Origin: Kappaphycus alvarezii
Lineage: Eukaryota > Rhodophyta > Florideophyceae > Gigartinales > Solieriaceae
Length of the DNA: 64,000 nucleotides
Assembly (NCBI GenBank): GCA_002205965.3
Contig: NADL03000683.1
Location: forward strand, 124,001 to 188,000
Direction: 5' to 3'
The notes beneath the pieces are model-generated. The model worked only from the letters and a program-made list of their open reading frames with translations, had not been told where the DNA came from and searched no databases. A program made the translations under genes and the position numbers. This document shows, piece by piece, positions 6,930 through 62,660 of the stretch (positions are counted from its first letter, which is position 1; each line of letters begins with the position of its first letter).

Positions 6930-8279
6930 ATGCCTAATTCTCCTCCCTCAGCCCCTAAACCTCCTCCCTCTCCACCACCTTCCAATCCCCAGCAACCCTT
7001 CCAATTTCTGCCCCAACTTCCCCACCCCCACCCCTACCTCCAGTCCCTCCGCAAAAGCAACCACGCAAAAAATATGTCCTAACCAAACGTCGTGAATACT
7101 GGACCGACGACGAACACAAACGTTTCATCACCGCCCTTGCCCTCTACGGTCGCGAATGGAAAGCCATTGAGCGCGACGTCGCTACCAAGACCGCCGTCCA
7201 AATTCGATCCCACGCTCAAAAATATTTTCTTCGTCTTGAGCGTAACCGTTCCGCCGCCCTTCTCCAATTCCTCCTCCGCGCCCTCGCAAGTCTCGCTCTC
7301 ACTCCCAACCCGCTCTTTCTGCTGTTCATTCCCATTCCTCCGTCCCGACATCTCTGCATCCCTCATCTAACCTTTCCAAGCTTGCTTCCAGTGCCTTGTG
7401 TCCCTCTGCACCTCCCGCAAACCTACCCCATTCCCCTTCTGTCCTCCCGCCACAGCCACCGCCCCCGCTCCTCGCTCCCAATCCTCACTATGCCCTTCAT
7501 CATCATCATACACCCCCGCCACCACCACTGCACTCACACCATCCACCCGCCCCCGTAGCAATTGCACCCGCCTTACCCACGCCTCCGCCTCCGCACCATC
7601 CCTCAATGTCCACTCGTCTACTCGTACCCAACTCACCCGCCCCAATATCCCTCCGCCGCGCCGTTGCCCTCAACCCATTACTATCCCTCCGCCATACCGC
7701 CTGTATCCTCTTATTATCACCATCCGCATTACGTGTCTCCCACAGCCACCCTGCTCCTCCAAGCCACTTGACCCCACGTGTAGAAGGTGCCTATTATGCA
7801 CACGTCAGCCTTGGCAAGTCAGGCAGTCACCCCGGCCAGACAAGAAGCGCAACGCGATCCCTACTCAACCCAGAAAGAGGACTAGGGACGAAGAGTCGGA
7901 CGAACAAACTGAGAGGCACGGGAAGAGAAGAGCCAGTAGCGTCGCCGATGACGTCGACAAGGAAGATATCGCAAGTAGCGACAAGTTGCAAATGAGTAGT
8001 GCGGGATCGTCCGGTGAAGAAGCGGACATTGACAGTTGCAGCGGAGGGTCAGGCAGTGGTGAAATGGCAGCCAGGAGGATGCACAAGGCTAGGGCCGCTG
8101 TCATGTGTAAAGACGGCCACGTTCCGCCTGCCGTGCATCAGCATGAGGGAGATTGTATGGTAGCCTCAAGGTTGTTGGCTCTGTGGAATGCAGGACCGAT
8201 GGCCATGGGAGGTGGGAGTGTGCAGCAGAAGCAGACCGGAGCGGGAAGAGGCAAGGCCGCTGCGACCGTAACGTGTTAA
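6930..8279 (+). CDS. SHAQKYF-class single-Myb transcription factor
   Basis: This encodes a DNA-binding factor of the plant/algal one-repeat Myb class (the CCA1/REVEILLE-like group), expected in the nucleus. The Myb repeat lies at about 7097-7231: it opens with WTDDEHKRF, has a central Trp in YGREWKAIE, and ends with the diagnostic [11 protein letters not shown]. It is followed by the IPPPRPRK basic tail typical of these proteins. The rest is low complexity: Pro/His/Ser-rich (about 7270-7760), then an acidic and basic tail ([12 protein letters not shown]) to the stop at 8279. The start at 6930 gives a Pro-rich N-terminus. At least four one-base frame changes occur (near 6990, 7258, in 7600-7800 and near 7860), all without other decay. 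They look like sequencing indels, several in C or CT runs. The target genes cannot be told. Confidence 0.8.
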
Positions 8280-13839: not shown

Positions 13840-15324
13840 ATGGCGGATGACGGAGGCGTATTGCATGAAGTCTTTGGGTCGGATCTTGGATCGGATGAAG
13901 AGGTTGAAAGGCTTCAAGCATCTGTTCCCCACCTGTGAAAAGGGCATCTCCTGAAAGGAAAGAGGAAAAAGCCGAGTCTTTGGCAGCAGATAGGGAGGAC
14001 AAGGGAGAGAAGTCTCTGTTTGATGAGGACGACATGGAAGATCCCGAGGACGACTTTGTCAAGAGACCTTCGGTAGGGAAAAAGAGGGCTGCCATTGTCT
14101 TTGACGAAGAGGGTGCCGATGACGAAGACGACCAGGATTCAGTTGATATGCGCCGCCAAGAGAGGAAGAGGGGTGAAAAGAGACGAATTGGTGCCAGTGA
14201 TGAGGAAGAAGAAGACTACGATGATGAAAGTGAGGAGGAAAGAAGAAGGGAGAAGAAAAGGAGGCGTCAAGCAAGGAGAAAAAGCGAAAGTCCTCCAAGG
14301 GGAAACACAATACACAGAATGCCTGAGGATGATGAAGATCAGATTACTCCAGCAGCTGATGATTTCCAAAATGGTGACCGTTCCCGTGGTATTGACGAAG
14401 GATTATATGAATTTGATGATGAAGAAGAGGAAAAACCGAAGAAGCCTCAAACTGAAATGGAAAAGGCTTTTGGAGGCGAACAAAGCCCTCCGCAGACCCA
14501 GGAAGCAAGAGCTTGACCCCGCAAAGGTGGAGGCAGAATGCGTTGCGTTTCTGGAGCGCATGATGGCGGCTAGGGACGACGATATGAGGTCCTATAAGCG
14601 TGGAAAACCGGCTCTGGAGAAACTGAAGATGTTGCGCGATGTCGAGTTGATGGCATGAAAGTCAGTCACAGAGAACATTTGTTGGACAACATGTTGCTTG
14701 CAATCATCAAGGCTTGGTTGGACCCGATGCCTGATGGTGCTTTGCCGAATGTGCAGATTCGTACGTCTCTTTTGAACATTCTAACAATATGCGGGTGGAC
14801 GATGACTGGGTGGCGACTTCATGGATCACAGGCCTCGGGCGTGTGATTCACTTTTTGTCTCGGAATGATGATCATGCTCCGAACAAACGCATGGCTGAGA
14901 AGTTGATGATGAAATGGGCACGTCCGGTATATCAGAGCAATGCAAACTTTCATGACTTACTCGATGAATTTGACAGACCGGAGGGGGTCGTAAGGCTCCG
15001 AAGGATGGGGTTGCATCAGAGCGCCGCGCGGCAATGGAGACGGTGCGACACTTCAAAACGACGCAGGAGAGGATCCGCTCCTTCAAAAGCAGGACAGGAA
15101 ACGATCGCAAAGATGAGCAGATCTTGGCCACGGTCCCTCGTCGTATGCCTTTCCTGTTCACAACAATTGCGGAGGGATCTACATCCGTGGATGAAAAGCA
15201 GATGCGCGAAATCCGCAGTGCGAAGGCTAGGAACAAGAAGGTGAACAGGACAATGTCTACATTGCGGCGTGCTAACAAGAACCGCTCGGCCAGGGCAGCA
15301 AAGCCGTCCTTAAATGGCCGCTAA
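13840..15324 (+). CDS. IWS1: IWS1/Spn1 transcription elongation factor
   Basis: Conserved eukaryotic factor that binds Spt6 and elongating RNA polymerase II in the nucleus. The start at 13840 (MADDGGVLHEVFGSDL) opens a long acidic and basic disordered region (EDDEDD, EEERRREKKRRR runs) as in the family. The conserved TFIIS N-terminal-like fold follows: RRPRKQELDPAKVEAE at about 14492, ALEKLKMLRDVELM at about 14615, then HLLDNMLLAIIKAWLDPMPD and LPNVQIRTSLLNIL (14670-14780), then DDDWV and IHFLSRND. The C-terminus is Lys/Arg-rich, ending at 15324. The reading changes frame at a C run near 13933, a T run near 14470 (one T too many restores a perfect fit), near 14654, near 14780 and near 15030. 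No stop or other damage occurs within the conserved parts, so these are most likely sequencing indels in an intact gene of about 495 codons. Confidence 0.85.
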
Positions 15325-30785: not shown

Positions 30786-32439
30786 TCACATTTCGACACG
30801 CCCCCTCGAGTTGATGTCCACAATGTTGAGTAAATCTCGATGGTGGCTAGTCAGCTCGGATGGTAAGGCTTTGGTGAGGGAATCTGCCTTGTTATTATGG
30901 GACGAAATGTAAACCACCTCACACTCCTTAGCCTCAACAGCCTCGCGAACATGAAAGTACTTGATAGCAATATGCTTCACATGGCGAAGACCTGGGACTT
31001 TTGTGGTCCAGTTAATGGCCCCAAGGTTATCCTGAAATACCTTTGTCGGCTTTTCATCCGCGAGTCCCAGTTCTTTAAGCACTCCTCGAGTCCATGATAC
31101 GTCTCGAATACTTGATGATAATGCTATGGAATTCAGCTTCTGCCGTTGAGAGCGCAACACTGGACTGTTTCTTTGATGTCCACAGTATCGGTACATCATT
31201 TAAAGTAACTACTGTTCCGGATCTGGACCTTCGCTGTTCCTCATCGCGGCCCCAGTCAGCATCAGAGTGAATTCCACTACAGCCTTCTTTAAACCCTTCT
31301 TTATAATGATCCCGGCGCCTTTTGTTCCAATCAAGTATCTAATTAGGTACTTCATCGCATTCCAATGTTTCGGTGCATGGCCTTTATTAAACTTGGCAAG
31401 CAATGATACCGCAGTTGCTATGTCCGGCCTGCTCCTCGTTGCCAAGTACAGTAAAGATCCCAATATTGCCTTGTACGGCGTATGTTCCATAGCATCCTTT
31501 TCTTTCTGCAGCAGTGGTTTTCGAGCTTCATACAGGACATGTCCCATTGGCAGTGGAGACTTAGTTGACTTTGCTGTGCACATACCAGCCATTTCGATGA
31601 TTTGATTAGTATATGAGGATTGAGATAGGAAGAGGAAGGAATCATGATCTTCAATCCTTACTCCTAAAAAGAAGGATAGCTCTCCAAGGTCAGTCACCTC
31701 AAATGTTTTCCTTAGTTAATCCTGACGTATTCAATGAGGTGAATATCTCCAAGAAGAGCCATATCATCCACGTAACACAGAAGAATAACAACTTTTCCAG
31801 TCCTTTTAAGCATAAAGGCGCATTCATGCATCCGGAGCTCCTCAAAACCAATTTCTTTGAGACGAGTTCTGAGCTTCTATACCAGAGCTTAGGTGCTTGT
31901 CTTAGACCATAAAGACTCTTGAGCAAACGGGCTATTCTACCATCCAGACCTTTGATGCCTGGGATACTTGGCAATCTGATCCATATTGGCGTGTCTACAG
32001 GGAGGTTTGCGTATAGGAACGCCCCTTGACATCAATTGTTGACGAGCCCATCCAAAGCAGCGGAAAGGACGAGAAGTAGTCTGACCATATCCATACATAT
32101 GACAGGTGCATAAAACTCAGATGATCCACTTCCATCTATACGCTGCATGTTGCCCCTTGCGACCAATCTTGCTTTGAACCGAGCAGGCAACCCCTCTGAG
32201 TTGCGTTTTAGCCTGAGAATAAATGCAGAGGGCAAAGCTTTTTCACCTGATGGAGGGAGTTCTGACTCTAGTTTCCAGGTTTTACTGATTTCTAGCAGCT
32301 CCATTTCTTCCATGATCGCATGTTTACAATAGGTACTTTCCTCACTTGAGAGAGAATCTCGAAGTTTCGGTTCGTCTTTGGTGGATATTGATCGTGGCAA
32401 GCCACTTACAGGGCTTTCAGAGGCTGTGGCACGAGCCAC
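30786..32439 (-). pseudogene. copia reverse transcriptase and RNase H
   Basis: Copies the element RNA into DNA. From 32439: ICMDMVRLLLV near the N-terminal part, LKRNSEGLPARFKARLVARG (the typical copia RT entry), the YVDDMALLGD catalytic motif near 31780 in an alternate frame, LYGLRQAPKLWYRS, FFLGVRIE, ILGSLLYLATRSRPDIA, then RNase H: LGLADEKPTKVFQDN, AIKYFHVREAVEAKE and NNKADSLTKALPSE at the end. Reading changes frame at about 32030, 31700, 31210 and 31130. Catalytic Asp residues are kept, so some changes may be sequencing indels. Confidence 0.8.
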
Positions 32440-33540
32440 GAACTCCCCCCTTCGCTGGCATTAGAACTTTCACTGCCGCAAAGAGGTATATGTTCTAAAG
32501 AATCGTGATATAAAGAATCGTGATAATGGTCGATTGACGAGATATTTTTGTCTGACTGCTCGTAGCTATTAGTTTTTTCATCACTAGTGTGTGTCCCATC
32601 TGAATCAAAGTCAGTATGCCACTCTTCCCTCTGTAGAGAATTGTTCGTGACATTAGGTACTAGGTCTTTAAGCCTGGGGAAGTTATCCTCATCAAAGGTC
32701 ACATGCTTTGTTCTAATGACCTTTGCAAGGTGTCCCGGGCAAAGGATAAGTTGACGCCACCTTTGTCATGTCCGAGATTAAGACCACTAGCCATGAGTGG
32801 TGCGAATTTGTTAGATTTAAACTTCTTTCCGGGATCAGTTAAGTAACTGACTTTGCACCCAAAAACGCGCAGATGCTTAATTATTGGCGATTTTGTTCCA
32901 AATAAAGCCTCATACGGTGATTTTCCTGTTTGGGTGTGCGGGATTGCATTCTTACAATCTACGGCGTTTTCACTGCGTATGGCCAGAACTGCAATGGTAC
33001 TTTCGAGACAGACAGAGATGAACGTGCTGCATTGATAATGACGCCCTGGGTTCGCTCAACAAGACCGTTTGATGCTGGAGTGTAACTGGATGTTAGGTCT
33101 ATATCAACGCCACTTACCTGAAGTACTTTTTGTCCTTCAGTAAATTCTCGACCACCATCTGAATGTAAAGACTTCACAGTACAATCTACTTGACGTTCGA
33201 ACCACTTTGTGAATTCCAGCAGCGCAGGAGACGCATCCCCCTTATTCGAAATAGGCTTTGCAAAAATAAGCGCGTAGCTTCATCAACAATGGTAACAAGT
33301 ATTTCTCCCCGCGTGGTGATGTTTGCTTAATCTTACCGAAAACATCGATGTACAGGTGACCAGGCTTATCTGCCTTTGTGATACTGCCTTATAGGAATTC
33401 GAACCTTTCCAAGGATACAAGGCTTGCATTTTGACGTGTAGGTACTTTAGGCAAGTCCCCATTCCTAATCATTTCTCGAATCATTTTAGCTGAACCTTGA
33501 TGGCTAAGCCGATGATGCAAGATTTCACAGTCTCAGAATC
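32440..33540 (-). pseudogene. copia integrase
   Basis: Joins the element DNA into the host genome. LHHRLSHQGSAKM near 33525 is the pre-integrase HxRLxH motif. The core follows: HLYIDVFGKI near 33360 (first Asp), LHSDGGREFTEG at 33170 (second Asp), SNGLVERTQG at about 33075 (catalytic Glu), with the C-terminal part extending to about 32440 through an acidic Ser-rich linker. Several frame changes. Confidence 0.75.
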
Positions 33541-33634
33541 TTTTTGTCGATGGGGACGGTGGAGGCTTTCGTTCTCATTATAAGTAAGCTGGTTTGATGC
33601 CACTCATTTTGTCCCACTTCCGCTGGAGATTCTT

Positions 33635-34028
33635 CATCAGAATTTGCGTAGAGAAACCAGAGTCAGCCTTGTCGGCAGACATATGGCTATCAATTGTTTC
33701 TTTTGATGATAGATCAATAGGTTCACTATCCTCAGCAACACCAGGTGTTGATGATGCAAAGGATACTGTTTGAGAATTAGAAGCACCAAATGTATTCAGG
33801 TCAATGGCCTCGTGCCTTTGTGCAGTTTCGACATCAGAATTTGCGTAGAAACCAGAGTCAGCCTTGTCGGCAGACATATGGCTATCAATTGTTTCTTTTG
33901 ATGATAGATCAATAGGTTCACTATCCTCAGCAACACCAGGTGTTGATGATGCAAAGGATACTGTTTGAGAATTAGAAGCACCAAAATGTATTCAGGTCAA
34001 TGGCCTCGTGCCTTTGTGCAGTTTCGAT
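33635..34028 (-). repeat. About 198-bp tandem duplication inside copia
   Basis: The sequence starting CATCAGAATTTGCGTAG at 33635 recurs at 33832 and runs to about 34028, almost identical apart from small indels. It encodes an acidic Ser/Asp-rich linker (SADKADSGF, IDLSSKETIDSH) lying between the protease and integrase domains. The near-identity suggests a recent duplication. Confidence 0.9.
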
Positions 34029-43514: not shown

Positions 43515-44290
43515 ATGACCGCACCAAGTGGACTTAGAGCCTTGGTAAGAAGAGCCTCGAAGACTGGTACCTCAGCTTCTCAGCTAAATGTGGATGTTGG
43601 TTTGGGAACTGGAAGGCGTCGAGTGCAGCAGGTTTTTTCTAGTTCTGATCACGTGTCCTTCTTGTAAGATTAAGAGAGAGAGCCCTCTCCAACTGTTGAT
43701 CGTAAAGAAAAGAAGGCAGGGACAGAGGACCACTACGACTAGCTACAGTGTAAGGGGGAACTGGGACTTTCTTTAAAATTTAATTGGGCCTGCTAAACAG
43801 ATACAACCCGGCAACGGCTTGACCAATGCTTACTCCAGCAAATGGGATGGAAGAAAATTCCCAATTGAAATTTCAGCAATCCGAGAAATAAACGGATTTG
43901 AAGACTCCGCGTGTAATCGAGGTGCTTACAGAAAGCGACGACGACAAAGACTAATTCGCGAAGTGAGTGAGCTTGAGTAACTCCAGTAGGACAGAAACAG
44001 CTAGGACCCTCGATTGCTGTGACGAAGGTAGCACTAGTTGGGTGCGACAGGGTACGCTGAGCATTGCTGAGCCTGATCGAGGAGGACGACTTCCTTACAC
44101 GCCTTCCCCAGATGGACCCGACGTGCGGTGGGAGGGAGGGATGGGAATCTCTCCAGAGCGGCAAAAACCAAAATCGACACCACGAGGACTCCGAAGCTAG
44201 AACTGGCGGTCCGTAAGACCCGCTTGGGCTTGATGTCTCGACGCCTGAGCCCAGGATAGCCCGGGCGCAGCGAACTGAAACAATATTGAA
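43515..44290 (+). pseudogene. Unknown fragment beside the Ty3 insertion
   Basis: ATG at 43515 opens SGLRALVRRASKTGTSASQ and VDVGLGTGRRRVQQVF, stopping at 43667. Later plus frames contain AIREINGFEDSAC, RKRRRQRLIREVSELE (ending 43978) and ALLSLIEEDDFLTRLPQMD. The basic, Ser-rich N-terminus resembles a retroelement gag, but nothing decisive is present. A minus frame over 43793-44317 is also open. The right end is cut by the Ty3 LTR. Confidence 0.25.
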
Positions 44291-44295
44291 AGAGA

Positions 44296-45015
44296 TGATG
44301 TGCACAAATTCGCACACGAAAAAATTTAGATGAGGACCATAATTGTATACAGTATTGGAACTGGGAAGATATTTTTACAGTTTTTGAATTTGCAAGATAT
44401 TTTTAATTTGGGTGAGTGTGGCAAATTCATCGGTTGATTTTTTATTTTAGGACACGCTGTCATAGTGGATGTCAGTACAGTTCTAGGTTGTGGGTGATAC
44501 TACGAGTGACTCTGAAAGGTCTATATAATGGCCACATCAATTCCCACCCCTGGCCGATGGGTGGCTGGCATGGGTATGGCACCTAGATATTTACCTTGAG
44601 GAAATATCTTCTAATGGTCTCTCTGGTTCACACGATTCCCGTGAATGCGTTTTATGGTATTTAGTATGTTTGATTGAGACTTTAGGATTAGCCGAAAGGT
44701 CTATATAAGCTGAGTAAAGTGCTTCCTCCTTGAGAGGTCAAGCAAGTTGGCAGACAACTTCAGGTCAAGCTCCGAGTAGTAGGAAGTTGAGAGTCAACTT
44801 CAGACCCTAGAAAACTTTTTCCTAAGCTGGTCGCAGAGCATCAGTGGTAGACCCTGCCCCTTTTATACTTGCTTGTAGCCCTCTCAACTCTCTCCCATAT
44901 ACACTCCTTTTTATTTGTTCAACTATACCACGGTAGCACTTTTGTCGCTCGCAACACCTCCGTCTTGGGGTAGTTGGTTCTAAGTATCTCTTCTCCCGAC
45001 GATTTACCCCTATCA
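44296..45015 (+). repeat. 5' LTR of Ty3 element
   Basis: 720 bases, TG...CA ends. TATA-like CTATATAA at about 44520 and 44699 could serve as promoter elements. The 44755-44805 part has a short imperfect internal repeat (AAGTTG...CAACTTCAG, twice). Confidence 0.95.
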
Positions 45016-45104: not shown

Positions 45105-46500
45105 ATGGATCTCAACGCTGCTCGTATAACGTTCACAGGGGGCAAGAATGAAGACGTTGAGGAGTTTCTCTATACATATGTCAACGTTGTGATGCGTGAG
45201 AAGAGCGATGAAGAGAAGGCCGAAAGTATCTTCGCCTATCTTCATGGTGACGCAAAGCACAAATATAAGGCCAAGTTTATCAACGGGTGGTCTCTTAACG
45301 GGAATGGGCGTAACTTCGGTGAGGTATGTGAGTGGCTTGTGAAAGAATATGCTAAGGAGGTAGAACCAGATGAGATGATTCGTACCGCCATAGAGGCCCG
45401 GCTCAACTTCGACGATTTGTTAAGCTCATTGGTATACTTGTGTGATCTCTATGAAAAGGCTGGGTTCAACGCCCAAGCCAAGTACGGAATGCTGCGTAAG
45501 GCGGCGATGGGGGATAAGCGGCTCTCCGATTTCCTCCTCATCAAGGGCCCTCACACTTTTAATGAACTGAAGGGTACCATAGTAGAATTTGTCAAAAATT
45601 CGGAGACGTTTCAGTCACTAAGTGAAATGCCGACGGGAAACCCGTACATCTATGCCGATCGTACATCCTGAAAAGAATTATCAAAGGCCAGCGACTAGCG
45701 CAGCAGCATTGGAATCAGTCAGGAGCGATGTCAAAAACTTGGAAGAAAGGTTGGAAACCCGATTCGATAATCGACTTGACATGATAACCTCGCAGTTGGA
45801 AAGCCTTACTCTTACCATTAAGAAGAACCAGTCTGGGGCCCCCAAGGCCGCAGAAGTCTGTTCCTACTGTCACAAGCCTGGACACTTTGCAAATAGGTGT
45901 CCTGATAATCCACATAGAAACACTCGTTGTGGAAAGTGCGGTCGATATGGGCATCATGAAAGTAACTGCTGGTCTAAAGACAACAGAAAGCAAATTTATC
46001 GGACGCAAGGAGCGAGTCAGGACCAGAGATGAAAATCTTACAAAACAGAAAGGATCACAAGTTGACGGATGCCGGTAACGTATCCATCGCTGAAGAAATC
46101 AGTCAAGTCAATGTGACAAAAAGGGATGGGGAAGGGAACATTTTATCGAAAAAACCTAGGCTAGATTATGGAATGCTGGAACATATCCCAGCACCTGTAC
46201 CTCCTCGAACCAAGAGGTCTGATCAAGTTGTTCCAGGAGTGGAGTCACTCCGGCCAAGAAGACGAAAAGAGTAAGAAATTTAAGAATATCCCAAAGGACG
46301 TACTAGAATATGTGAAGAAGTACAATTTGGTGGCTGAGCTTGCATCAGCCCCAACTGGGATAACGTTTGGTCAACTTTTGAGGGGCGACGCAGAGGACGC
46401 GAGAAAGAACTCAAAAAAATTATCAGGTCTAATAAGTCCGCTAAGGGTAAGAAACTGTTTCTTCAATCGGCCTCGACAGCACCAAGACGTCTTAAACTAG
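45105..46500 (+). CDS. gag: Ty3 gag
   Basis: Structural protein that packages the element RNA. It starts at 45105 (MDLNAARITFTGGKNEDVEE), with the capsid-like region to about 45670 (EWLVKEYAKEVEPDE, AKYGMLRKAAMGDKRLSDF). After a one-base change the frame from about 45670 has a coiled region (VRSDVKNLEERLETR) and two CCHC zinc knuckles: CSYCHKPGHFANRC at 45859-45900 and CGKCGRYGHHESNC at about 45928-45969. A Lys-rich linker continues through frame changes to about 46500 and leads to the protease. Frames probably form one gag-pol reading. Confidence 0.85.
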
Positions 46501-46514
46501 TACCAGTCAAAGTA

Positions 46515-46898
46515 TTGGGAATGCAAACCCAAGCTCTTTTCGATTCGGGCGCTGTTCCAAACCTTATTTCAGAAACTTTGGTGACAGATCTAGGTCTTGA
46601 AATTATTCCAACTACTCGAAGAATAACTGTGGCGGATGGAACCGTATCAAAATGCATGGGCACTGTTGACAAGGTTTCCGTGTTCTTTGGGGACTCTAAA
46701 GTTGATTTAGACTTTCTTGTCATGCCTGATCTCCCTTTCGATGCAATCATTGGCTGCCCTACCATGGAAAGACTAGGGACCTGCATTGACTTGGGCAACC
46801 AAATCGTTTCAGTTAATGTTGACGGCAGAACCGTGAAGATGCCCCTGGATTTCGACAAAAGCACACATCCGGTAGATTTGAAAGAGAACGGACAGTGA
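46515..46898 (+). CDS. Ty3 aspartic protease
   Basis: Retropepsin-like protease that cuts the polyprotein. LFDSGAVPNLIS at about 46539-46574 holds the catalytic Asp-Ser-Gly; LPFDAIIGCPTMERLG is the hydrophobic-hydrophobic-Gly flap-side motif. The frame ends at 46898 and is followed by an acidic linker (to about 47200) before the reverse transcriptase. Only one DSG is present, as expected for a retroviral-type homodimer. Confidence 0.85.
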   Translation: MGMQTQALFDSGAVPNLISETLVTDLGLEIIPTTRRITVADGTVSKCMGTVDKVSVFFGDSKVDLDFLVMPDLPFDAIIGCPTMERLGTCIDLGNQIVSVNVDGRTVKMPLDFDKSTHPVDLKENGQ

Positions 46899-47203: not shown

Positions 47204-48635
47204 GTGAGAATCAAGAAGAAAAAGGGCGCCAAATGGCAGAAATTCAAGAAAAGTGCAGCACCTTCCCGCCCCGCCTCACTGAAAATATCCGACATGTTAA
47301 CATCTTCCGAAGTAATTGCATGGAGTGTATCAGATTTAAGACAAGCAAGTGTACCGGTCACTCACTCATTTGAACTTACCGATACTCAACCAATTTACCA
47401 CAGGCCTAGACGTCAACCGCCAAAATATGACCAATTTATCTCAGAGAATGTTACAAGTATGCTGGAAAATGATATTATTCGGCCAGTTTCATCCCCATGG
47501 TCATTTCCAGTTGTGGTCGCACCAAAGAAGGATGGAAAGCTGCGTTTTTGCGTCGATTACCGACAACTGAACCAGAGAATGATACCCGATCGATTTCCGA
47601 TTCCGAAATGGAGGAAATCCTCGAGGACTTGAAGGACGGGAGATACTTCACCTCAATTGATCTTTACACTGGTTATTGGCAGATTCCATTGATGAAAAAT
47701 GCAAGGAAAAACAACTTTTACCAGCAAAGCCGGTACATTCAGGTTCGAAGTGATGCCTTTTGGTCTCATGAATGCCCCAGCTACATTCCAAAGAATGATG
47801 AACGAGGTTTTGAAAGGACTTCCATTTGCAAGAGTTTATATCGATGATGTAGTGATATTCTCAAAAACCTTGGATCAGCACATATCGCATGTCAAGACTG
47901 TGGTGGAGAAAATAGCTGCGTACAGCCTGAAAATTAAGTTAAGCAAATGCTTCTTTGCGAAAACGTCTATCCAATTACTCGGTCATATCGTCGATCAAGA
48001 GGGAATTAAAGTGGATCCAGAGAAAACGAAAAAAATCAAGTTGGCACCAAGGCCCGCTTCAAAGACGGAGGTTCGAAGCTTCTTAGGACTGGCCTCATAT
48101 TACAGAAGATTTATCAAAGATTTCGCCAAACTGCAGCACCGTTACATGCCAGCACACAAGAACGGAAAATTTTGGAACAAGGAAATGCAAACCGCATTTG
48201 AGAGCTTAAAGATAAGCTATGTGTCCCCCCAGTGCTCATGTATCCAGATTTCAAGAGACCATTTGTTGTGGAGACAGATGCCTCAGAACGGTCTTTGGGT
48301 GCCGTTTTGTCCCAAAAAGATGAAAACGGAAGACTACACCCTTCAATTCGCAAGTCGCACTCTGAATGATGCGGAAAAGATACTCAGTCTGCGAGAAAGA
48401 AGCGCTAGCTGTCGTCTTCGCACTGAAAAAGTTTCGTGTTTACCTTTTATCACTCGAGAAATTTGTCTTGATAACTGATCACCAGGCACTTAAGACAGCA
48501 TTCCAAAAGAAAGATGTACATCACCGCTTGGCCCGATGGCTCGACATTTTCGCAGAATATCGGTTTGAAATTGTGTATAGGCCCGGACGCAATAATCAGC
48601 CTGCCGATTACCTATCCCGCTTGAGGGATCCATGA
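47204..48635 (+). CDS. pol: Ty3 reverse transcriptase and RNase H
   Basis: RT: SPWSFPVVVAPKKDGKLRF then CVDYRQLN (47490-47575), IPDRFPIP, ILEDLKDGRYFTSIDLYTGY (first catalytic Asp), FEVMPFGLMNAPATFQRMM, and the catalytic YIDDVVIF at 47837. The thumb/connection has LGHIVDQEGIKVDPEK and EVRSFLGLASYYRRFI. RNase H: ETDASERSLGAVLSQKDENG near 48270, EKEALAVVFALKKFRVYL, ITDHQALKTAF, and NNQPADYLSRL to the stop at 48635. Frame changes near 47610, 47710, 48130, 48230 and 48370 are all in well-conserved sequence and are probably sequencing indels. Confidence 0.9.
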
Positions 48636-48744
48636 TTCCAAATGAAAAAGCTTCCGAGACATCGTCGGAGTTGCCGAGTTCAAGTGCCGATCATAACGAG
48701 TACGAAGCTATATTCACGGACTTTAAATTCCTGATGGACTAGAA

Positions 48745-49900
48745 ATGAGAAAGGTTGATCTCGAACACAGAAATTGGGTACGCAGGAACAAAAGGCTTTA
48801 CATTGTGGAATGGGAAACTCTTCCGACACACAAAGCCGGTCCTCGACTAGTGGCCCCTTTGAAAGAAAGAATCAAGATCTTGAGGACTTTTCATGATGAG
48901 TTAGGGCATTGGGATCTCGAAACAACCAAAAATTCATTACGAGAGATTCTGGTGGCCCAGTATCCATAAGGACGTCTATAATTCGTGAAAAGCTGTGACA
49001 ACTGTCAAAAATTCACTCCGAACGAAAGTATAAGACAACCTAAGCTTTCCAGTTTCCGCTCTTTGAAACCTTCTCAATTGACTTTGCCGGCCCATTCAAG
49101 GAAACCTCTTCCGGAAACAAAATACTCCTTATAGGGGTGGAACATCTTACTGGATGGCCAATAGCAGTTGCAGTTGAGGAGGCCAATGCTGAAGTGGTCC
49201 TGAGATTCATCGAAAAAGAAATAATTGAACCGTTTGGTCTTCCAAAAAGGATCATCTCAGATAACGCCTTTGTTTTACTGCAACTTCACTGCTTCGTTTC
49301 TTGGAAGAGAAAGGGATTCAGCTGAAGACAGTTCTCGCATACGCTCCTATGTCAAACGGTAAAGCGGAGAGGATGGTTGGAACCATCAAACGAGCAATAT
49401 CGAAAACTATGTCGAGAATGAAATCCAGTGGGAAGATGCCTTACCAAAAGTGTTATACGGCTATCGTCGAAGAAGAGGAAGAAGTGGACGGTCACCGTTT
49501 GAGCTAATGTACGGAAGGCTCCTAGAATGTTACAGAGAGATATGGAAACAAATATTATCGATGAAGAGAGTAGAGAGGTCGAACTACTGGCCACCGAAAG
49601 CTGGAGATCACACCGCGCGCTAACACAGACAAGAAATAAGAATGAAGAGCCTCCAGTCCAAACTTTCTCAGTCGGCTCTAAAGTACTTGTAGCACACGGA
49701 AAGCAATGCAACAGGCTGTGAAGTGGCCGGCTTTCCCAAACAAAGTACTCGAACCTTGCATCGTCACGGAGGAAAGACACCCGCATTATAAGCTCTGTTC
49801 AAGCTCAGGGAAGAGATCAAGGAGGGCCATCCATGCACGTCGTCTGGTCCCTTACCATCAGAGGCCTGAAGAATTCCTTCTCACACAGGACTATGCGCAA
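48745..49900 (+). CDS. Ty3 integrase
   Basis: Inserts the element DNA. Zinc-binding HHCC region: FHDELGHWDLETTKNSL (48888-48938) and CDNCQKFTPNES (about 48995-49030). Core: SIDFAGPFKETSSGNKILL (first Asp, about 49075), EHLTGWPIAVAV, ISDNAFVF at 49255 (second Asp) and MSNGKAERMVG at about 49350 (Glu). The C-terminal part has VGSKVLVAHGK, EERHPHYKL and IHARRLVPYHQRPEEF. No chromodomain is seen; the reading continues without a stop into the 3' accessory module. Confidence 0.85.
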
Positions 49901-51000
49901 CCACGAGGCATACTCATCTTTAACTATAGAATGATTCCTATGGGAGGAAAAAGGGCCTGGGAATGGATCATCTCGATTACGCGTGACTACTACGAACTCC
50001 ACGTAATCATCCATTTCTACATTAATATATGCCTATGTTTTCGTACGTTGAACGGACCAGCTACCATTGCTACCTCAAGAAGATTTCCGACTATTGATCA
50101 GAGTTCTATTCTCATTCCAAAACGGAAGGTTCACGGAAGCAGGTCCAGAGTTTGTGGAAGTCATATATCATTACTCTATAGGGAGGTATGGAATGGTAGC
50201 TATCGGAGACTTGTCGCAAACATATCTGAACATTATCCGTCCAGTTTACGTTATTTCTTAAGAACAACCAAGATGTGCGACTGAGAGGTTACAGCTTGCC
50301 CCTGATATGGAATATCGACTGGTCCCATATCCTCTATGGGAACCTTACGTTGCTCCGCTCAGAAATACACACCTCAGCCGAAGACCAGGATCCTCCCGAG
50401 GCCGTGATGATGATACGAGCTGGACCATCAAGTGATCGGGGCGGATCATCGAAGAGGGCAAGGCGTCGGGAGCAGCGAGGAAGATCGCCAAGAAGATCGC
50501 CTCAAACACCGCCTAGTCTCCCAGGGGGAAACTATGCATCCTTAATTATTGGACGACTACCAATTAGACGTTGGCTTCGCGAAATGACAGAGGACCCTCG
50601 AGAAGCAGAAGTAATTTCCTTTTTTGCCATTAGTATTTGCATGTGCTTCCAGACCATTCACGGGGCGCACCTTACTCGTGAGGACTCAGTCCTTATGTTG
50701 CGAGTTTTTTTCTCCTTCAGATACCCGTTTCTGGACCCGTTGCCAGAAAAGTTTGCATACTACGTTTACTACCTCACATTTGGAAGGTTTGGAGAAGTGA
50801 AACGGGAGGAGCTCATTAGAGAACACTATGAAACCATACGCCGAATCTACGAAACTCTTGACCAAGGAGATGAGCCGGTCATCGCACGGTACACACTCTC
50901 TCATCATATTGGAAATGAGCTACTACCATATCCTTATAGTGAACCCTATACTCTCCCTGATGAATGGATAGAACTCCCACAAGAACAACAAGAGCAGTGA
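49900..51000 (+). CDS. 3' accessory module with tandemly duplicated domain
   Basis: Sense-strand coding region between integrase and 3' LTR, of unknown function. Two copies of a roughly 140-residue domain follow each other. Copy 1 (about 49930-50365) has INICLCFRTLNGPA, LIRVLFSF, YHYSIGRYGMV, YLNIIRPVY and LVPYPLWEPYVAP. Copy 2 (about 50530-50975) has ISICMCFQTIHGAH, LMLRVFFSF, YYLTFGRFGEV, YETIRRIYE and LLPYPYSEPYTLP. Between them is an Arg/Ser/Pro-rich linker (SSDRGGSSKRARRREQRG). The stop is at 51000, 20 bases before the purine tract. No signal peptide or membrane segment, so it is not a typical env. Copy 1 starts in frame with the integrase C-terminus; it may be a pol extension or a separate ORF. 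Confidence 0.75.
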
Positions 51001-51033: not shown

Positions 51034-51747
51034 TGATGTGCGCAAATTCGCACACGAAAAAATTTAGATGAGGACCATAATTGTATACAGTATTGGAACT
51101 GGGAAGATATTTTTACAGTTTTTGAATTTGCAAGATATTTTTAATTTGGGTGAGTGTGGCAAATTCATCGGTTGATTTTTTTATTTTAGGACACGCTGTG
51201 TCATAGTGGATGTCAGTACAGTTCTAGGTTGTGGGTGATACTACGAGTGACTCTGAAAGGTCTATATAATGGCCACATCAATTCCCACCCCTGGCCGATG
51301 GGTGGCTGGCATGGGTATGGCACCTAGATATTTACCTTGAGGAAATATCTTCTAATGGTCTCTCTGGTTCACACGATCCGTGAATGCGTTTTATGGTATT
51401 TAGTATGTTGATTGAGACTTTAGGATTAGCCGAAAAGTCTATATAAGCTGAGAAAGTGCTTTCCTCCTTGAGAGGTCAAGCAAGTTTGGCAGACACTCAG
51501 GTTCAAGCTCCGAGTAGTAGGAAGTTGAGAGTCAACTTCAGACCCTAGAAAACTTTTTCCTAAGCTGGTCGCAGAGCATCGTGGTAGACCCTGCCCTTTT
51601 ATACTTGCTTGTAGCCCTCCAACTCTCTCCCATACACTCCTTTTTATTTGTTCAACTATACCACGGTAGCACTTTTGTCGCTCGCAACACCTCCGTCTTG
51701 GGGTAGTTGGTTCTAATATCTCTTCTCCCGACGATTTACCCCTATCA
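51034..51747 (+). repeat. 3' LTR of Ty3 element
   Basis: 714 bases, same ends as the 5' LTR. Differences are nearly all one- or two-base indels (for example T6 versus T7 near 51176). Confidence 0.95.
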
Positions 51748-51764
51748 GCTGTCTTCGTCCAGAC

Positions 51765-53365
51765 TCAGAGCGCATGTTCATGTTGTTCCTGTTGGATTTG
51801 GCAGTCCGCCTCCTCTGGAACTCCCCCCCTTCTCAGCATGTCCTTCTTCAGTCGCTCGATTTCAGACAACCTTTTCTCTTCAGCTTGCCTCGGCCACCCT
51901 CCGCCATTACTTTCCCACCCTCTCACCTGCCCCTTTGCAGGCCCGTCTCTCCTGGTTTCTCTCTCCGGGTGCGACGCGGCTGTTCCCATTTCCAACTTCA
52001 CCCATTTCTTCCTCATGCACCTCAAATGGGACCTGATCAGTATCCACTGGGGCATCATTCATCGAGTGAGATTCAGGCATTGGCGACGGAGCTTGCCATC
52101 TCGCTGCTTGGTCAGCGTCATTCCAGTCGAATTAGCGCCCTCTCCAGCATCATTACTTTGACCATCGGCATGAGGGGGCCTCGTCCTGTAGCTAACCTGC
52201 AACTTTTCTCCATTGAAAAACGGCAAAACTGTGCAAAGCTGTTCTAGCCGCCTCAACATGTCCGAATGTAATAATCGCCGTCCTTTTCAACACTGCCGCG
52301 ATGCGGTCTCGAACGGATGCTGACGGAAACCACTGAATTCCGGGAATACTATTAAACAAGTGTCTTACAGCATCCTCCGAAAAAAGTTCGACCGAACATA
52401 TGAAAACAGCAACTCCCTCGATCAGGTACCCGGTTGCGGGGGTGCCCTCTGCGTATCGATACGATCGCCACCGGTAGATGTGCCCCTGAAATACGACATC
52501 GTCAACTGCTCGCCTTCAAAATTGCGCCCCCTCGACATAGCAATGGACGCCTCTTGCGGGGTGGCAAACGACACCATGGCGGTACGTCGGCTGTCTGGCC
52601 CCTCAATGAGCCTCTCATGGTCACTCTCAAGGGCGTGACACCTGGAATTGCGCCGAAATGTTTCATAATCATGCGCCCTGAAACAACAGTGGCGGCACGC
52701 CTCGCACCAGAACAGCCTTGGCCAACACCCTGGCGGGCGATCGCCAGGAGCAGCACGAGAATTCGGTGCGGGTGGTGCAAACGGATCATTGCGTGTGTCA
52801 GGGTTGCCAAAGTCACTGGCACCGGCGTTTGAAGAGGAACCGGCGGGAAAATGATTGCGAGTGTCCCAGGTTTGATTAGAGGCTGGTGCAAACGGGTCCT
52901 TGGCGGTGCTGGCAAAGGCATCATCTTGTGTGGACTTGTTGAAGGGATCATGACGCGACGTGTCATAACGGGGTGGAGAGCGGTTGAACGGATCTCTCGG
53001 GGCAGTATTGAAAGGATCCCCCCTGGTATTGGGAGGTGGGTTAGCATTTTGTGAGGCGAAAGGGTCGCGTGTGAAAGAGGTTTCATGGCGTTGTGGAAAA
53101 GAGTTGTCAGCCGGTGAAAACGGGTCCGGGGCAAATGAAGGGGGATCATGGGAACGAAACGGCGAGTTGGCAGAAGGGTTACCAAAGGGGTTAGAGTTTG
53201 GAGCAGAGGAGGGCAAAGGTGCAAACGGATCTGACGGGGCACTGGCAGAGTTTCTGCGAAAGGGATCATTGGGTGTAGCGAAGGGATCTCTGGAGTTGAG
53301 TCAGATAGGCCAGAGTGGTAGCCAGAGCCGGAGTTGTGTGCGGGGCGGTTACCGAAGGGTTGCAT
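51765..53365 (-). CDS. DPF-repeat protein with two RRM-like domains
   Basis: Host-like gene, not a known family to me. The start at 53365 gives MQPFGNRPAHNSGSGYHSG. The next 200 residues are disordered with ten DPF motifs and one NPF. In animals and plants such motifs bind clathrin-adaptor ears and EH domains, but a PFG-rich start also recalls FG-type nuclear-transport proteins such as GANP/Sac3. RRM-like domain 1 (about 52690-52450) has AVLVRGVP, a helix, RRTAMVSFATPQEASIAM and FEGEQLTMSYFRG. RRM-like domain 2 (about 52420-52190) has VAVFICSVELFSEDAVRHLF, RTAIITFGHVEAARTALHSF and GEKLQVSYRTRP. Then a Gln/Glu helix (EEKRLSEIERLKKDML) reaches 51765, only 18 bases from the Ty3 LTR. The natural C-terminus may have been cut off by the insertion. 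Several one-base frame changes. Confidence 0.6.
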
Positions 53366-57931: not shown

Positions 57932-59380
57932 CTAGACTCTGCCCTGGCTCACAGTAATGGCGATGAAGTTCTCCTCTATTGTAATAGAGTGCGAATGCAC
58001 TTTCAACACTTTAAAGGGGCCCGTCGTCTTCACCATCAAATTGGCGGATTTGATATTTTTCTTCCTCTTGGGAATCTTCACCCTCAAGGCACCGCTTCTT
58101 GAAAGTGGGACAATCAACGTAAACTAAATCGTCCACTTTCACCGTCAATGGAGTCAGAGCTCTCTTATCAAAAGCCGCTTTGTATCGCCTCTGGGAGTCA
58201 TACGTTTTCCTCTTCACCTTCCGGAGAGAATTCGCAACCTCTCGGGGTGCGTACTTCTTGAAGTCCGCGGGTGCCAATTACTTGTTCGCCAAATTGGATA
58301 AGTACGCTGATGGGAGACTCGTCACGTGAGTAGGCGGTGGATGACGCGTTAGCACCAAATCAAATGGCGTCTTCCCAATCATTTGATTCACCTGATGGCT
58401 TTACGCGTGCGAGAGAGGCCCCAATAGGCGATTCCAATCCTTCTAGTTCTCGGCGACGTAATTGCCGGAGGCGTTAAACGATCGTTTTGTGTAATCGTTC
58501 AACTTGACTGTTCGCCCTTGGGTGATACGCTGTAGTAAAATAAATTTGCACCACTATGAGTTGACAGACAGCCAAAAAGAACTTAGGGGCGAGCTGTGGC
58601 CCATTATCCGTTAGGGGATAAAATGGTACACCATGAGGCTAAACCCAATGGGTAAGAAAGGCTTGGGCCACAGTTGTTGCCCTAGTGTCCTTCAAAGGAG
58701 GGCTTCGGTACAGATTCGAAAAGCTATCGGAGATCACCAAAACATTGCGGTCCCCATCATCTGTTCGGGGGAGAGAACCGAGAAGGTCCATTCCCAGAAC
58801 TCAAATGGGCCGGCCACCCGGAGCAACTCAAGATAGTCTAGGTGACTCCTTATGGCGCCTCTATTCTTGACGCAGCTCCCGCAATCTCCTACGGTGCGAA
58901 AGACGTCACTCGCCATTTTCGGCCAGTAAAATTCTCGCCGTAAGCTGTAATACACCTTCGAACCTCCTGGGTTCCCGAAAATTAGATAGTGAGCGCGAGC
59001 GAGGATATTCACCCTCATCGACTCCAGTACGACCTCCTGCAAGGTGTCATCCAATTTAGACAACCGAGCAAGGAGTCCGCTCGCCCCGAGGTGATAGGGT
59101 GACTGCTCCTGTTCGGCGAGCGTCATCGATTACGGGCACAAAGGGTCTTTTCGTTGCGTCTACAAAATCTCCTTAAGAGTAGCCGGCGGCTCCGAGTCAA
59201 TGGTGCTCGCGTCTCCTCGGAGGTCCGGTATAGAGAAATAAACTGGGGCGTCCACGTCGTACCCCAAGGTGAAGCACGGAATCTACTCATCCAAAGGTGA
59301 CTAATAGCTCCCATTGGTGGCCAATCTAGACATAGCATCCGCGAGTTTGTGTCTCCTGGCTGGATTGCATCGTAATTCAA
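57932..59380 (-). pseudogene. Old Ty3 integrase
   Basis: Zinc-finger region at about 59005-58890: ILARAHYLIFGNPGGSKVYY, FYWPKMASDVFRTV, CGSCVKNR. The second His of the usual GHPG motif is Asn here. The catalytic core is decayed beyond recognition (WEWTFSVLSPEQMMG at the first-Asp position). The C-terminal part, 58277-57932, keeps DSQRRYKAAFDKRA, VDDLVYVD and GPFKVLKVHSHSITIEEN, the GPF/Y-type module after integrase cores. Probably inactive. Confidence 0.7.
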
Positions 59381-59522
59381 AGTTTAAATTCGCTAATCGG
59401 AGTAGCCACCGGGCCAACCTCCCGTTACAGTTCGTAATATGTAGCAACCACTGTAACAGTTGGTGATCCGCGCCAAGGATTAAGCATTGCCCTTGAAGTT
59501 GAAGCCGTAAGGTGATGACGCT

Positions 59523-60749
59523 CTATAGTACAGCAAGGAACTCCCTTTCGGTGGCACTGTATTTTCTCTCCGCTTTAGGCAGCGTACGGATCCAGTATCC
59601 TATAGGTGACAGCTCTACTAAAGGTTGCTCCTGTAGCAAGCAGCAACCAAGCTGGCGATTGCACGCGTCTGTGTCAACATAAAACCTTTTATTTGTCTTT
59701 GCGAGAGACAACACCTGGGGTGACTTCAGCGCCTTCTTTAACTCCTGAAACGTTTCGAACTCCTCGCGGGTGAGCAATTCAAATTCAAAGGGCTGGTCCT
59801 TTGACAGCTTCTTCGTCAAGGGATGAGCGACGCGCGCATAGTTCTTGAAGATCCTTCTATAGGAATTGCATAAAACTAGAAAGGAGCGTAGTTTCGTCTT
59901 ATTTTGAGGTGGCCGAGCCTTATCGAGCGCCTTTAGGTTCTTCAATGCCAGTTCAAGTTTGCGCTGGCGCACAACATGTCTCAGGTAATCCACTGCGTGC
60001 TCGCAGAACTTGCCCTTCTTCAGCTTCAGGATGATGCGACCGCCTATAGGAGTGATAAAACCGCACGAAGGTGTTTGAGGTGCTCTTTTCGGTTCTTAGA
60101 GTACTCTTTGACGTCTTCCAGATACACCAACGCGTACTTCCACTCGCACCTTGAAAGAATGATGTCAACCGCCCTCTGAAAGGTGGCCGGGGCATTCTTT
60201 AACCCGAATGGAATGCGGAAAAAACAGTAAAGAACAAGAATGGCAGGTGACCGATGTCTTTTCTCAGTCAGCGGGATCGATGAGTACTTACCAATACCCA
60301 GTATTTACAGTCTACTGTAGAAAAACCTCGGCGTCGCCTAAGGAGTCGATGTACTCCTTCATTCTAGTGATAGTATAAGCGTCGCGCACCGTAAAGGAGT
60401 TCAGGTGCCGAAAGTCCACACAAAACCGCGAAGACCCATCCAGCTTCTGAATAAGCACCACAGGAGTTGCCCACTCCGCTTGGGACGGCTCGATAACTCC
60501 CTCTTTGGAAAAATAAGTCCGGGGGGCACTGACGGACGTTCCATAAGAGATGCTTGTCATACGAGGTGTCATTGTTCGGCGAAACAATCCCTCCATTTTG
60601 ATCAGGTTCGCGCGCCTCTCTCCTAAAAAATGACGTCCCACCGTTGGGTCTACAGTAAGAAAATCGCCAGTGAAATGCTCCAGACTAGAGCGTATCCAGC
60701 ACAATCTTGTGGAAATGGTAGAAGTCGTGGTAGACGTGGGCGACGACAC
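59523..60749 (-). pseudogene. Old Ty3 reverse transcriptase and RNase H
   Basis: RT: EPSQAEWATPVVLIQKLDG, SRFCVDFRHLN, YTITRMKEYIDSLGDAEVF (60520-60315). A frame change follows, then NAPATFQRAVDIIL and LVYLEDVKEYSK at about 60130, where the usual YxDD has become YLED. Connection and RNase H (59993-59523): LRSFLVLCNSYRRIFKNYA, FYVDTDACNRQLGCCLLQ, ERKYSATEREFLAVL. The altered YxDD would be expected to abolish activity. About 160 bases near 60200-60330 are out of frame. Confidence 0.8.
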
Positions 60750-60780
60750 AAATAAGGTGTGATAAATATCCTACTGGAGA

Positions 60781-61790
60781 TCAGTCAGCTGTCGAGGCTG
60801 CAGATCCGCAGACTCCTACGAGGAACCATCTTCTTCCTTTTCTTTGTTCCAACCTTGTGTCTTTCTTTATAGACAAAACACCTCTTTGCTTCCTCGCTAA
60901 AGCCGGTCGGGAGTTACAATAAGAATCCCCCAACGCCTGGGCGTAATGCTTGAGCTCCATGAAGGTGACCTTCTTGCTCGTTGACGGATGATTTCGGACG
61001 GTGGCCTGAATGTTCGGCGACAATCCATCCACAAAAATCGACTTCAGAACATCGATCCACAGCGACGTGCCTTGGCTCGAATCAACTCCGCAAAGGTGGA
61101 TTCCGTCATCAACCCTCCATTCCTCATCGAAATCACCTGATAGTAGGCCTTAGCAATCACGTCATCGGTGGCATACGTCCTCAGGATGTATTTCACCGCT
61201 TCGGGTAAGTAGGCACCAGGTATTCTTCCTCATGATCATCGATCACCATACTCCTCGAGGTGTTTAGACGCGACTACAAATTATCCTTTGCTGACCAGTC
61301 CATAAAATTCCGAAATAACAACAAGGTGAGACCTTCACTGACGTCGCTGTGATCACAGGCGTTCTATAAACCTATTAGGAATCCCAAACCCGTGATAGGG
61401 TCCTTTCCGGTAAACCTTTGGGTGGGCATCTGCACAGCCAACCTTTTGAGATACGACGACACCTTTTTGGAGACACTACTCGAATACGATGACGAACGGT
61501 CATTCAACCAATAGGACTTGTAATTCAAAACTCAGGAGAACAATCCATTCAATGGTATGGTACGTTCAATCCTCAACTTCGATCAATGCCTCCGCCTCTC
61601 CTCACCTGAACTGGAGTCCGAATCCGATCCATCTAAAATCCCTGAGGAGGACTACGAACTCCCCTTTGACTTCTTTTTCTATTTACTTGACCCCTTTGAC
61701 TTCTTCTTCTTGCGTTATTTATTCCCTCGACGACCATTTTCGCGGCGATCATGGCACGGCCTAGAATCAGACGAGCCCTATGGGTCACCA
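60781..61790 (-). pseudogene. gag: Old Ty3 gag
   Basis: The 61032-60781 frame contains VDGLSPNIQATVRNHPST, FMELKHYAQALGDSY and a Lys/Arg-rich end, a typical end of a gypsy capsid region. Upstream (61770-61590) the minus strand reads a Lys/Ser-rich and Asp/Ser-rich N-terminus (KKKSKGSS, SDSDSSSGEERRRH) interrupted by TAA/TAG codons. No zinc knuckle is visible. A plus-strand frame over 61489-61799 is open only because it is opposite this low-complexity region. Confidence 0.55.
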
Positions 61791-61797
61791 TCAGGGT

Positions 61798-62200
61798 GAC
61801 GCTCCACTAGGTGCCCCTGCATAGGTCATGGCGGTCCAGTCCACTTTTCCCGGCCTACAGCCTCCACCCAGTTGGCTCGTCTTACAGCCCACACTGCTTG
61901 TGTACTACAGAATGGAGGTGCTCAATCAACAAAAGTGCCACTGTAGTATAGTTGCAGGATCAGGAAGTGGTACATATGGATAAAGGACCAAGGGTGTACA
62001 AGTCTATTCAGAAGGGGCAGGCTCTACTACCTACCATCACTAACAAGAAGTCAAAAGAACGCATACTGGGTATTAGGTTGATTTTCAACTTCGGTCCTCC
62101 CCGAGTACGACTTTCAAGTTGTCTTCCAAGTTGCTTGACCTCGCTCTGAGAAATCAGCTTACTCAGCTTATATAAACTTTTGGGTACCCCAAAAGTCTTA
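61798..62200 (-). repeat. 5' LTR of old Ty3 element
   Basis: On the minus strand it contains TATATAAGCTGAGTAAG (62174-62158), GAGGTCAAGCAACTTGG and AAGTTGAAAATCAACC, CTGCCCCTTCTGAATAGACT, and CAACTATACTACAGTGGCAC then TTTTGT (61954-61930). Each block matches a block in the same order in the young element's LTR. It ends at TGACGCTCC (forward 61798). A possible primer site, TGGTGACCCATAGGG, follows inside. The outer limit is uncertain. Confidence 0.65.
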
Positions 62201-62660
62201 TCAAAACCATACTAAATATCATAAACTTTATGGAAATAATTTCTGTGGACGTGAGATTCCCAACAAAAGACACTTAAAAGATTCTAGATAGACGCGGAAA
62301 CGATTCCAGTCCTTACAATTTCAATTCCCTACTCTAGATCCAAACAAATCATCCAAAATATCCATACCAACCAAACAGTCTACATGAATATCCGCGAACG
62401 GCTTATAATTCTCTCTCTACTCTTGGTGAGATATCTAAACCACTAAAGATGCCCCCATCTTGTTCCAGCGTCGGGACCACTTGGACCATATTATCCAGCC
62501 CCCACCCCGACACTCCAACATTTTCCATGTCTTTATCCCGCTCTTACCGCCGTCCTCCCCCTCGTCCTCCTTGTCCTCCTCCTCGTCCTCCTCTTCATCC
62601 TTGTCCTCATCCTTGTCCCATTCTCGTAAACCAGTCCCAGGGCCCCCAACTCCTCAAAAG
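62201..62660 (-). pseudogene. Retroelement gag/protease fragment
   Basis: The minus strand from about 62630 has an acidic run (DKDEDKDEEEDEEEDKEDE) followed by KSGIKTWKMLECRGGGW, then near 62385-62340 HVDCLVGMDILDDLF. The latter resembles the second motif of retropepsins (hydrophobic-hydrophobic-Gly-Met-Asp-Ile-Leu). The DSG motif was not found. It lies directly outside the old Ty3 LTR and may be a remnant of another element. Confidence 0.35.

Follow-up and report, generated by a model that had tools for sequence, protein, structure and literature searches.

What is encoded between the integrase and the 3' long terminal repeat (LTR) of a Ty3/gypsy retrotransposon in the red alga Kappaphycus alvarezii, and what could the product do there? 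The element lies within a stretch of 64,000 nucleotides of contig NADL03000683.1 (assembly GCA_002205965.3, positions 124,001 to 188,000; hereafter the window), in which a first-pass annotation had described an extra 3' module made of two tandem copies of an unfamiliar domain. On the sequence comparisons presented below, the module has the look of a hitherto undescribed accessory component that evolves fast within a single retrotransposon lineage, and the role that we favour for it, at a probability of roughly 0.4, is that of a protein-interaction tail of the integrase.

The tandem arrangement was recovered by two approaches. Compared by tblastn with the six translated frames of the whole window, copy 2 matches copy 1 over two segments, at 49922-50056 (38% identity over 45 amino acids) and 50070-50357 (30% over 96), with a joint E value of 6.9e-15 and the next match of copy 2 at E 1.3. 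A profile built exclusively from relatives, with no window sequence in it, detects copy 2 at E 1.3e-23; of copy 1 it picks up two pieces, at E 1e-10 and 5e-5, and a third piece that is not significant alone (E 0.48). Taken together, the joint tblastn value and the matches of the relatives-only profile therefore identify a duplication rather than a chance resemblance, in agreement with the annotated pair of sense copies between integrase and 3' LTR, and the ISICMCF/INICLCF-type motifs quoted for them are present in the translation. The further claim that both copies are kept open holds for copy 2, which lies in the open reading frame (ORF) 50230-51000, and fails for copy 1, which runs in frame 2 to 50056 and in frame 3 from 50070, with a shift between these positions, and is interrupted by an in-frame TAA at 50259-50261; from these frames we infer that another change, to frame 1 of copy 2, must lie in the linker at 50358-50529. 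Upstream, residues 1792-1917 of a related protein, P0037, align in one frame across the integrase C-terminal domain and into copy 1 (window 49700-50056). As far as the reading frame tells, the module extends the Pol polyprotein at the C-terminus and is not a separate gene: its position after the integrase is as annotated, and its separateness is not, since it is in frame with integrase and forms one Pol ORF in four relatives. An env-like separate third ORF was rejected on the same observations, namely the shared frame in the window and the single ORF in P0023, P0037, P0056 and P0121.

Relatives were collected with the open reverse transcriptase (RT) stretch as query, from which we took the best 120 of 3981 proteins returned, and with the integrase and module of P0037, which returned 12, two of them new, for a total of 122; both lists depend on shared words, and the plain 256-residue ORF used as a search query found no relatives. 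Among the matches listed, five of the 122 proteins carry the module: P0037, P0023 and P0027 with one copy each, P0056 with two and P0121 with four, at leave-one-out profile E values of 1.1e-20, 9.9e-18, 8.7e-18, 1.3e-48 and 9.9e-78, respectively. Two further proteins were judged chance matches and rejected as carriers, P0017 (E 0.005, 9.8 bits) and P0010, which reached E 0.00069 and 12.6 bits in one leave-one-out run, the best unrelated row of any run. In five of the six carriers (the window element, P0023, P0037, P0056 and P0121) the module stands directly behind the integrase C-terminal domain, in all four of these relatives within a single ORF with the rest of Pol; the only changed place is that in P0027, where it occupies residues 694-845 and separates protease from RT, the protein itself stopping inside RNase H. 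Tail lengths were counted in rows with an integrase score of at least 135 bits, which comprise four carriers and 13 others. All 13 module-less relatives, in which the profile search found no module, end 0-65 residues past integrase, 12 of them within 23 (P0072 6, P0041 0, P0052 5, P0058 5, P0036 8, P0028 6, P0051 2, P0060 15, P0057 65, P0088 23, P0080 22, P0077 23 and P0047 15). The count excludes 18 more distant proteins, which have integrase scores of 0.4-88 and in many cases a long tail of another kind; the module profile has no match in them at E 0.01. We regard the existence of the module family as practically certain.

Could the region nevertheless be non-functional 3' sequence, that is, chance open frames or a decaying insertion free of selection? 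The interruption of copy 1 in the window speaks for such a view, which we consider very improbable. Open copies persist in five other proteins, four of which (P0023, P0037, P0056 and P0121) have RTs 54-63% identical to one another, and the pattern of codon-position agreement between the window copies contradicts it: positions 1, 2 and 3 agree at 0.45/0.55/0.35 over 96 codons and at 0.47/0.60/0.42 over 45 codons, as against 0.25 overall for random pairings. This pattern and the persistence of open modules together point to constraint at the protein level. Moreover, indel-type noise runs over the whole element and its LTRs and not only through the module. For the family the non-functional reading is refuted by the relatives' profile matches, as judged from sequence, and copy 1 of this element could still prove broken. 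The first-pass annotation had taken openness in a young element as a sign of selection; with copy 1 not open, the evidence for selection comes instead from the relatives, and the core proposal of an unfamiliar, duplicated and apparently selected domain in a Ty3/gypsy element stands on its recurrence and on the codon pattern.

The host element itself is nearly complete (Table 1). Its domains follow the order Gag, protease, RT, RNase H and integrase, as established by Pfam matches (protease and RT above the cut-off, the integrase parts below it) and by collinear tblastn matches with P0037, and its LTRs have the TG...CA ends of the Ty3/gypsy (Metaviridae) class. The RT piece of the window nests among 34 relatives taken for Ty3/gypsy, in a tree that contains no outgroup of other LTR families. 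The LTRs are nearly identical, as annotated, with two mismatches in 726 alignment columns, although the same alignment contains 15 insertion or deletion (indel) events, and the element is spread over all three frames, in 14 tblastn pieces against P0037. Because the frame lesions run through gag-pol and the LTRs have 15 indels against two substitutions, the lesions are likely, if unproven, indel errors of assembly or sequencing rather than decay. No target-site duplication is visible at the element ends (44276-44295 compared with 51748-51767), which may reflect recombination, error or misplaced LTR ends.

Table 1. Parts of the Ty3/gypsy element and of its 3' module, in window positions.
Feature	Positions	Strand	Evidence
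5' LTR	44296-45015	+	ends TGATG...CTATCA; alignment to 3' LTR
Gag, capsid-like part, single open frame	45105-45644	+	tblastn P0037 residues 9-180, 49% identity, 45126-45644; aligned with relatives' Gag
Gag zinc-knuckle part, other frame	45643-45993	+	tblastn P0037 184-298, 54%; sub-threshold zinc-knuckle Pfam rows in ORF 45622-46029
Aspartic protease	46338-46895	+	PF13650 E 9e-12
RT and RNase H start, frame changes	47294-48406	+	PF00078 E 3e-21 (ORF 47696-48475); tblastn P0037 977-1351
RNase H end	48375-48629	+	tblastn P0037 1342-1426, 73%
Integrase zinc-binding and core parts, frame changes	48736-49703	+	sub-threshold PF17921 and PF00665; tblastn P0037 pieces within 1461-1792
Integrase C-terminal domain, same frame as copy 1 start	49700-49903	+	tblastn P0037 1792-1917 = 49700-50056
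Module copy 1	49904-50357 (about)	+	tblastn by copy 2; profile of relatives
Linker between copies, basic and serine/proline rich in copy 2 frame	50358-50529	+	three-frame translation
Module copy 2, open, then stop codon 50998-51000	50530-50997	+	ORF 50230-51000; profile of relatives E 1.3e-23
3' LTR	51034-51747	+	ends TGATG...TATCA; alignment to 5' LTR

The module comprises about 140 residues, and its ten aligned copies share two invariant residues, G88 and P138 (numbered on the translation of 50521-50997), within a signature that reads YLxFxV..RTL..WL, AY.LIHICLxF, GRYG and LPxP. An AlphaFold model of copy 2 has five helices, with a predicted local distance difference test score (pLDDT) of 72 and a predicted template modelling score of 0.69. 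A model of the P0056 tandem, of low confidence (pLDDT 54), predicts two helical domains with a similar order of elements, the helices running together in the first, and a linker of about 60 residues with pLDDT below 50; helical domains joined by a linker of such low confidence suggest an arrangement as beads on a string. In the same linker of P0056, from residue 1773, a CTGC with nearby histidines (FLCTGCQRNEIHP) might form a metal-binding knuckle, and nothing of this type was noticed in the linkers of the window or of P0121. The annotated lack of a membrane helix is likely and not proven, as judged by Kyte-Doolittle hydropathy: the maximum 19-residue mean ranges from 0.65 to 1.78 over the ten full copies, and exceeds the 1.6 line for a membrane helix in two of them (window copy 2 at 1.67, the third P0121 copy at 1.78), the other eight falling below it.

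Library searches do not connect the module to a known family. No trustworthy match came from sequence searches of Pfam, NCBIfam, PHROGs and PDB, and no confident one from fold searches against PDB and BFVD; the Pfam rows obtained are all sub-threshold (DUF4886 at E 0.28; EAD10 at 0.015 and UBA_SIK3 at 0.11, in one member each). A duplicate of the Gag capsid was rejected, since the alignment with the clade's own Gag profile by hhalign reaches only E 0.43 and a probability of 0.14%; the match to a gag, integrase-tail or envelope domain that the annotation had named beforehand as grounds against its proposal did not appear, in Pfam or in the comparison with Gag. A small beta-barrel of the chromodomain type was also rejected, as the predicted copy 2 model (pLDDT 72) is built of its five helices with no strand of at least three residues. 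None of the ten copies has a chromodomain Pfam row, but such a negative need not be decisive, as Ty3's own chromodomain was taken to be missing until its structure was solved (in passages of PMC8632968). That the module was captured from a cell or virus as a domain of known function, and has since diverged past recognition, we consider quite unlikely. Instances of LTR elements acquiring extra ORFs are on record, as excerpts of a study on bdelloid rotifers describe (PMC5408684), and the searches that failed to recognise the module were confined to sequence libraries, PDB and BFVD.

The carriers point to a shared history. In a tree of 35 rows built on the in-frame RT piece, all six form one group, with support 91/93 and recovery in 89% of 200 bootstrap replicates, and the five other than the window element group at 99/96 in an RT tree in which the window row was misplaced. 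One gain in the carrier lineage is the simplest reading of these trees, which a single origin fits without being proved. In the module tree, from which the first piece of copy 1 was excluded as too short, the second copy of P0056 groups with the second and fourth copies of P0121 (98/97), the first and third copies of P0121 group together (94/95), and the one copy of P0037 is joined by the two window copies (88/93). Placement of the first P0056 copy with the first and third P0121 copies is not supported in the tree (55/1); its highest direct scores are to those same copies, at 49 and 66 bits. A pair of subtypes, A and B, thus likely predates the split of P0056 from P0121 and was doubled in P0121, and the window pair likely has its own history within the branch that it shares with P0037. 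Against P0037, window copy 2 scores 88 bits and the copy 1 pieces about 32 and 44, compared with about 24 and 23 for the window copies against each other; because they score higher against P0037 than mutually, the window duplication may predate the separation from P0037, with P0037 losing one copy afterwards.

Across P0023, P0037, P0056 and P0121 the module is the least conserved of seven parts, with 20-32% identity measured on the first 125 residues of first copies, compared with 49-62% for the integrase C-terminal domain, 52-63% for the integrase core, 54-63% for RT, 65-75% for RNase H, 38-46% for protease and 35-50% for Gag (in three of the four elements). Low conservation of this order, set against that of the neighbouring integrase domain, is what one would expect if the part tracks a partner in the host. 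We propose that a Ty3/gypsy lineage acquired, as an addition to Gag-Pol, a helical domain some 140 residues long, usually directly behind the integrase C-terminal domain, where it would then have multiplied in place to one, two or four copies. The module would be a non-enzymatic protein-interaction part, acting late in the cycle; as an integrase tail it could bind a host chromatin or nuclear factor and so steer or help integration, and tandem copies could raise avidity or bind two partners, the A and B subtypes alternating in P0056 and P0121. The failure of the library searches to find a trustworthy match to an enzyme family counts for a non-enzymatic role, and the place behind the integrase C-terminal domain, where Ty3 integrase has its chromodomain, supports a tail. 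Homology, position, copy number, the single RT group and fast divergence are read directly from the comparisons, and the role is our inference from them.

Several observations weigh against an integrase tail. Lying between protease and RT, the P0027 copy cannot be one unless a second copy lies behind that element's integrase; the linkers hold peptides that resemble protease sites and are weakly enriched in them, so that the modules might be cut free; window copy 1 is interrupted; and other module arrangements may exist beyond the matches listed. The P0027 arrangement and the linker peptides fit, in turn, a scheme that we take as a serious if unfavoured possibility, in which the modules are accessory proteins inside the polyprotein, released by the element's own protease and acting by themselves, for instance in assembling particles, in entering the nucleus or in countering a restriction factor of the host. 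Where they lie in the polyprotein would then be irrelevant and copies could be added like beads, and the fast divergence of the module counts for this scheme as well.

The cleavage signal that such release would leave is uneven. The linkers contain hydrophobic peptides that resemble those which module-less sisters have after protease and at the RNase H-integrase junction, and 11 linkers scored with a matrix trained solely on 23 such sister sites give a Fisher chi-square of 39.3 (22 degrees of freedom, p 0.013). Yet only one of the 11 falls below 0.05 alone (that between the third and fourth P0121 copies, p 0.0085), with no signal in the linkers of P0056 (0.63 and 0.78), P0037 (0.55) or P0023 (0.37), and the best or near-best matrix score in P0023, P0037, P0056 and P0121 belongs to an inner integrase C-terminal peptide, VG(D/E)(H/K)VLV..G, a false site. 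In leave-one-out runs the matrix ranked 10 of 23 withheld sites first and the others down to 19th; the training sites were inferred and hand-aligned, and the linker peptides were chosen by eye before the test. An identical PVNVIRL occurs twice in P0023, at 660 in the linker that joins protease to RT and at 1781 in the stretch from integrase to module, in line with release; repeated 7-mers arise at 0.004 per shuffle of this protein and none occurs in the other 16 proteins tested. However, P0023 also repeats HARRLK (488 and 1765), and because the second of these falls within integrase, its repeats need not mark cleavage sites. A fuller scenario, in which a new family that arose in, or is confined to, one lineage serves as a multi-copy Gag-Pol accessory, with the A and B subtypes working as a pair (doubled in P0121) and released by protease onto a host factor that drives its rapid divergence, strikes us as unlikely. 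Separately, the protease-RT linker of P0023 and the tail of P0060 contain short RT-motif-like peptides outside RT (NYIDLSSGYWQVP; NYVDVSAGYWQIP).

Elsewhere in the window, remains of a second Ty3/gypsy element lie at 58737-61149 on the reverse strand in several frames, their extent estimated by eye from the ORF list; RT_RNaseH Pfam matches were obtained in ORF 59526-60095, the sole ORF of these remains that was scanned, and the module profile found no copy in them. ORFs at 30789-33055 (reverse strand) resemble a Ty1/copia polyprotein, again by eye from the ORF list, and a segment at 62068-62225 (reverse strand; 160 alignment columns) is 75% identical to part of the element's LTR and is likely the relic of a related LTR. 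An ORF at 33581-33991 on the reverse strand has a repeated segment (FGASNSQTVSFASSTPGVAEDSE...). Two host-like genes are found on the forward strand: 6959-7555, where a Myb domain (PF00249, E 1e-11) precedes SHAQKYF, and 14735-15241, with a Med26/TFIIS-type domain (PF08711, E 2e-5).

How does the module compare with extra domains of other elements? Those known (chromodomain, extra RNase H, dUTPase and env) are tied to targeting, replication or infectivity, and a dUTPase, an extra RNase H or other accessory domains occur in the Pol of some Ty3/gypsy elements. As an extra Pol domain in some elements the module is like the latter, but no Pfam row for any such family is found in its ten copies. 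For annotators, the 3' region of the carrier lineage is coding. The module provides a defined target of 140 residues for structure determination and partner search, with copy-number variants ready for comparison, and an unmatched domain present in one to four copies, and in one case elsewhere in the polyprotein, amounts to a natural experiment in the building of accessory functions. It is regarded as rare for LTR retrotransposons to fix an additional conserved domain (PMC9289625).

The chromodomain of chromoviruses, Ty3 and Chronos elements, as portrayed in sections of PMC8632968 and PMC5348765, is likewise a lineage-specific addition to Pol, placed at its C-terminus directly after the integrase C-terminal domain, and that of Ty3 integrase contacts TFIIIB and sets the integration site (PMC8632968, same sections); the module differs in being predicted helical, in its length and in its one to four copies, besides the missing chromodomain Pfam row. 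Bdelloid rotifer elements, in the excerpts of PMC5408684, have a captured ORF3 (GDSL esterase, DEDDy exonuclease or env), which is comparable in that it too adds accessory coding sequence after integrase and ahead of the 3' LTR, is specific to families and was acquired by part of a lineage; there, however, third ORFs encode recognisable enzymes or fusion proteins, whereas the module is a polyprotein extension of an unmatched family that has multiplied in tandem. Additional sense ORFs of plant LTR elements (env-like and others), as parts of PMC7264820 present them, share its place and sense, but the module is in frame with integrase, has no clear membrane segment and has homologs only in other elements in the searches made. 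No description of a helical tandem module of this kind was found among the papers listed by searches of the open-access literature, which were covered as titles, abstract openings and passages. Chromodomains, env-like ORFs and captured enzymes are known extras between integrase and 3' LTR (in portions of PMC5408684, PMC7264820, PMC6338049, PMC3248453, PMC5348765 and PMC11963269). Extra 3' domains are in this sense already known as a kind, to which, on its sequence, the helical tandem module itself appears to be a new addition.
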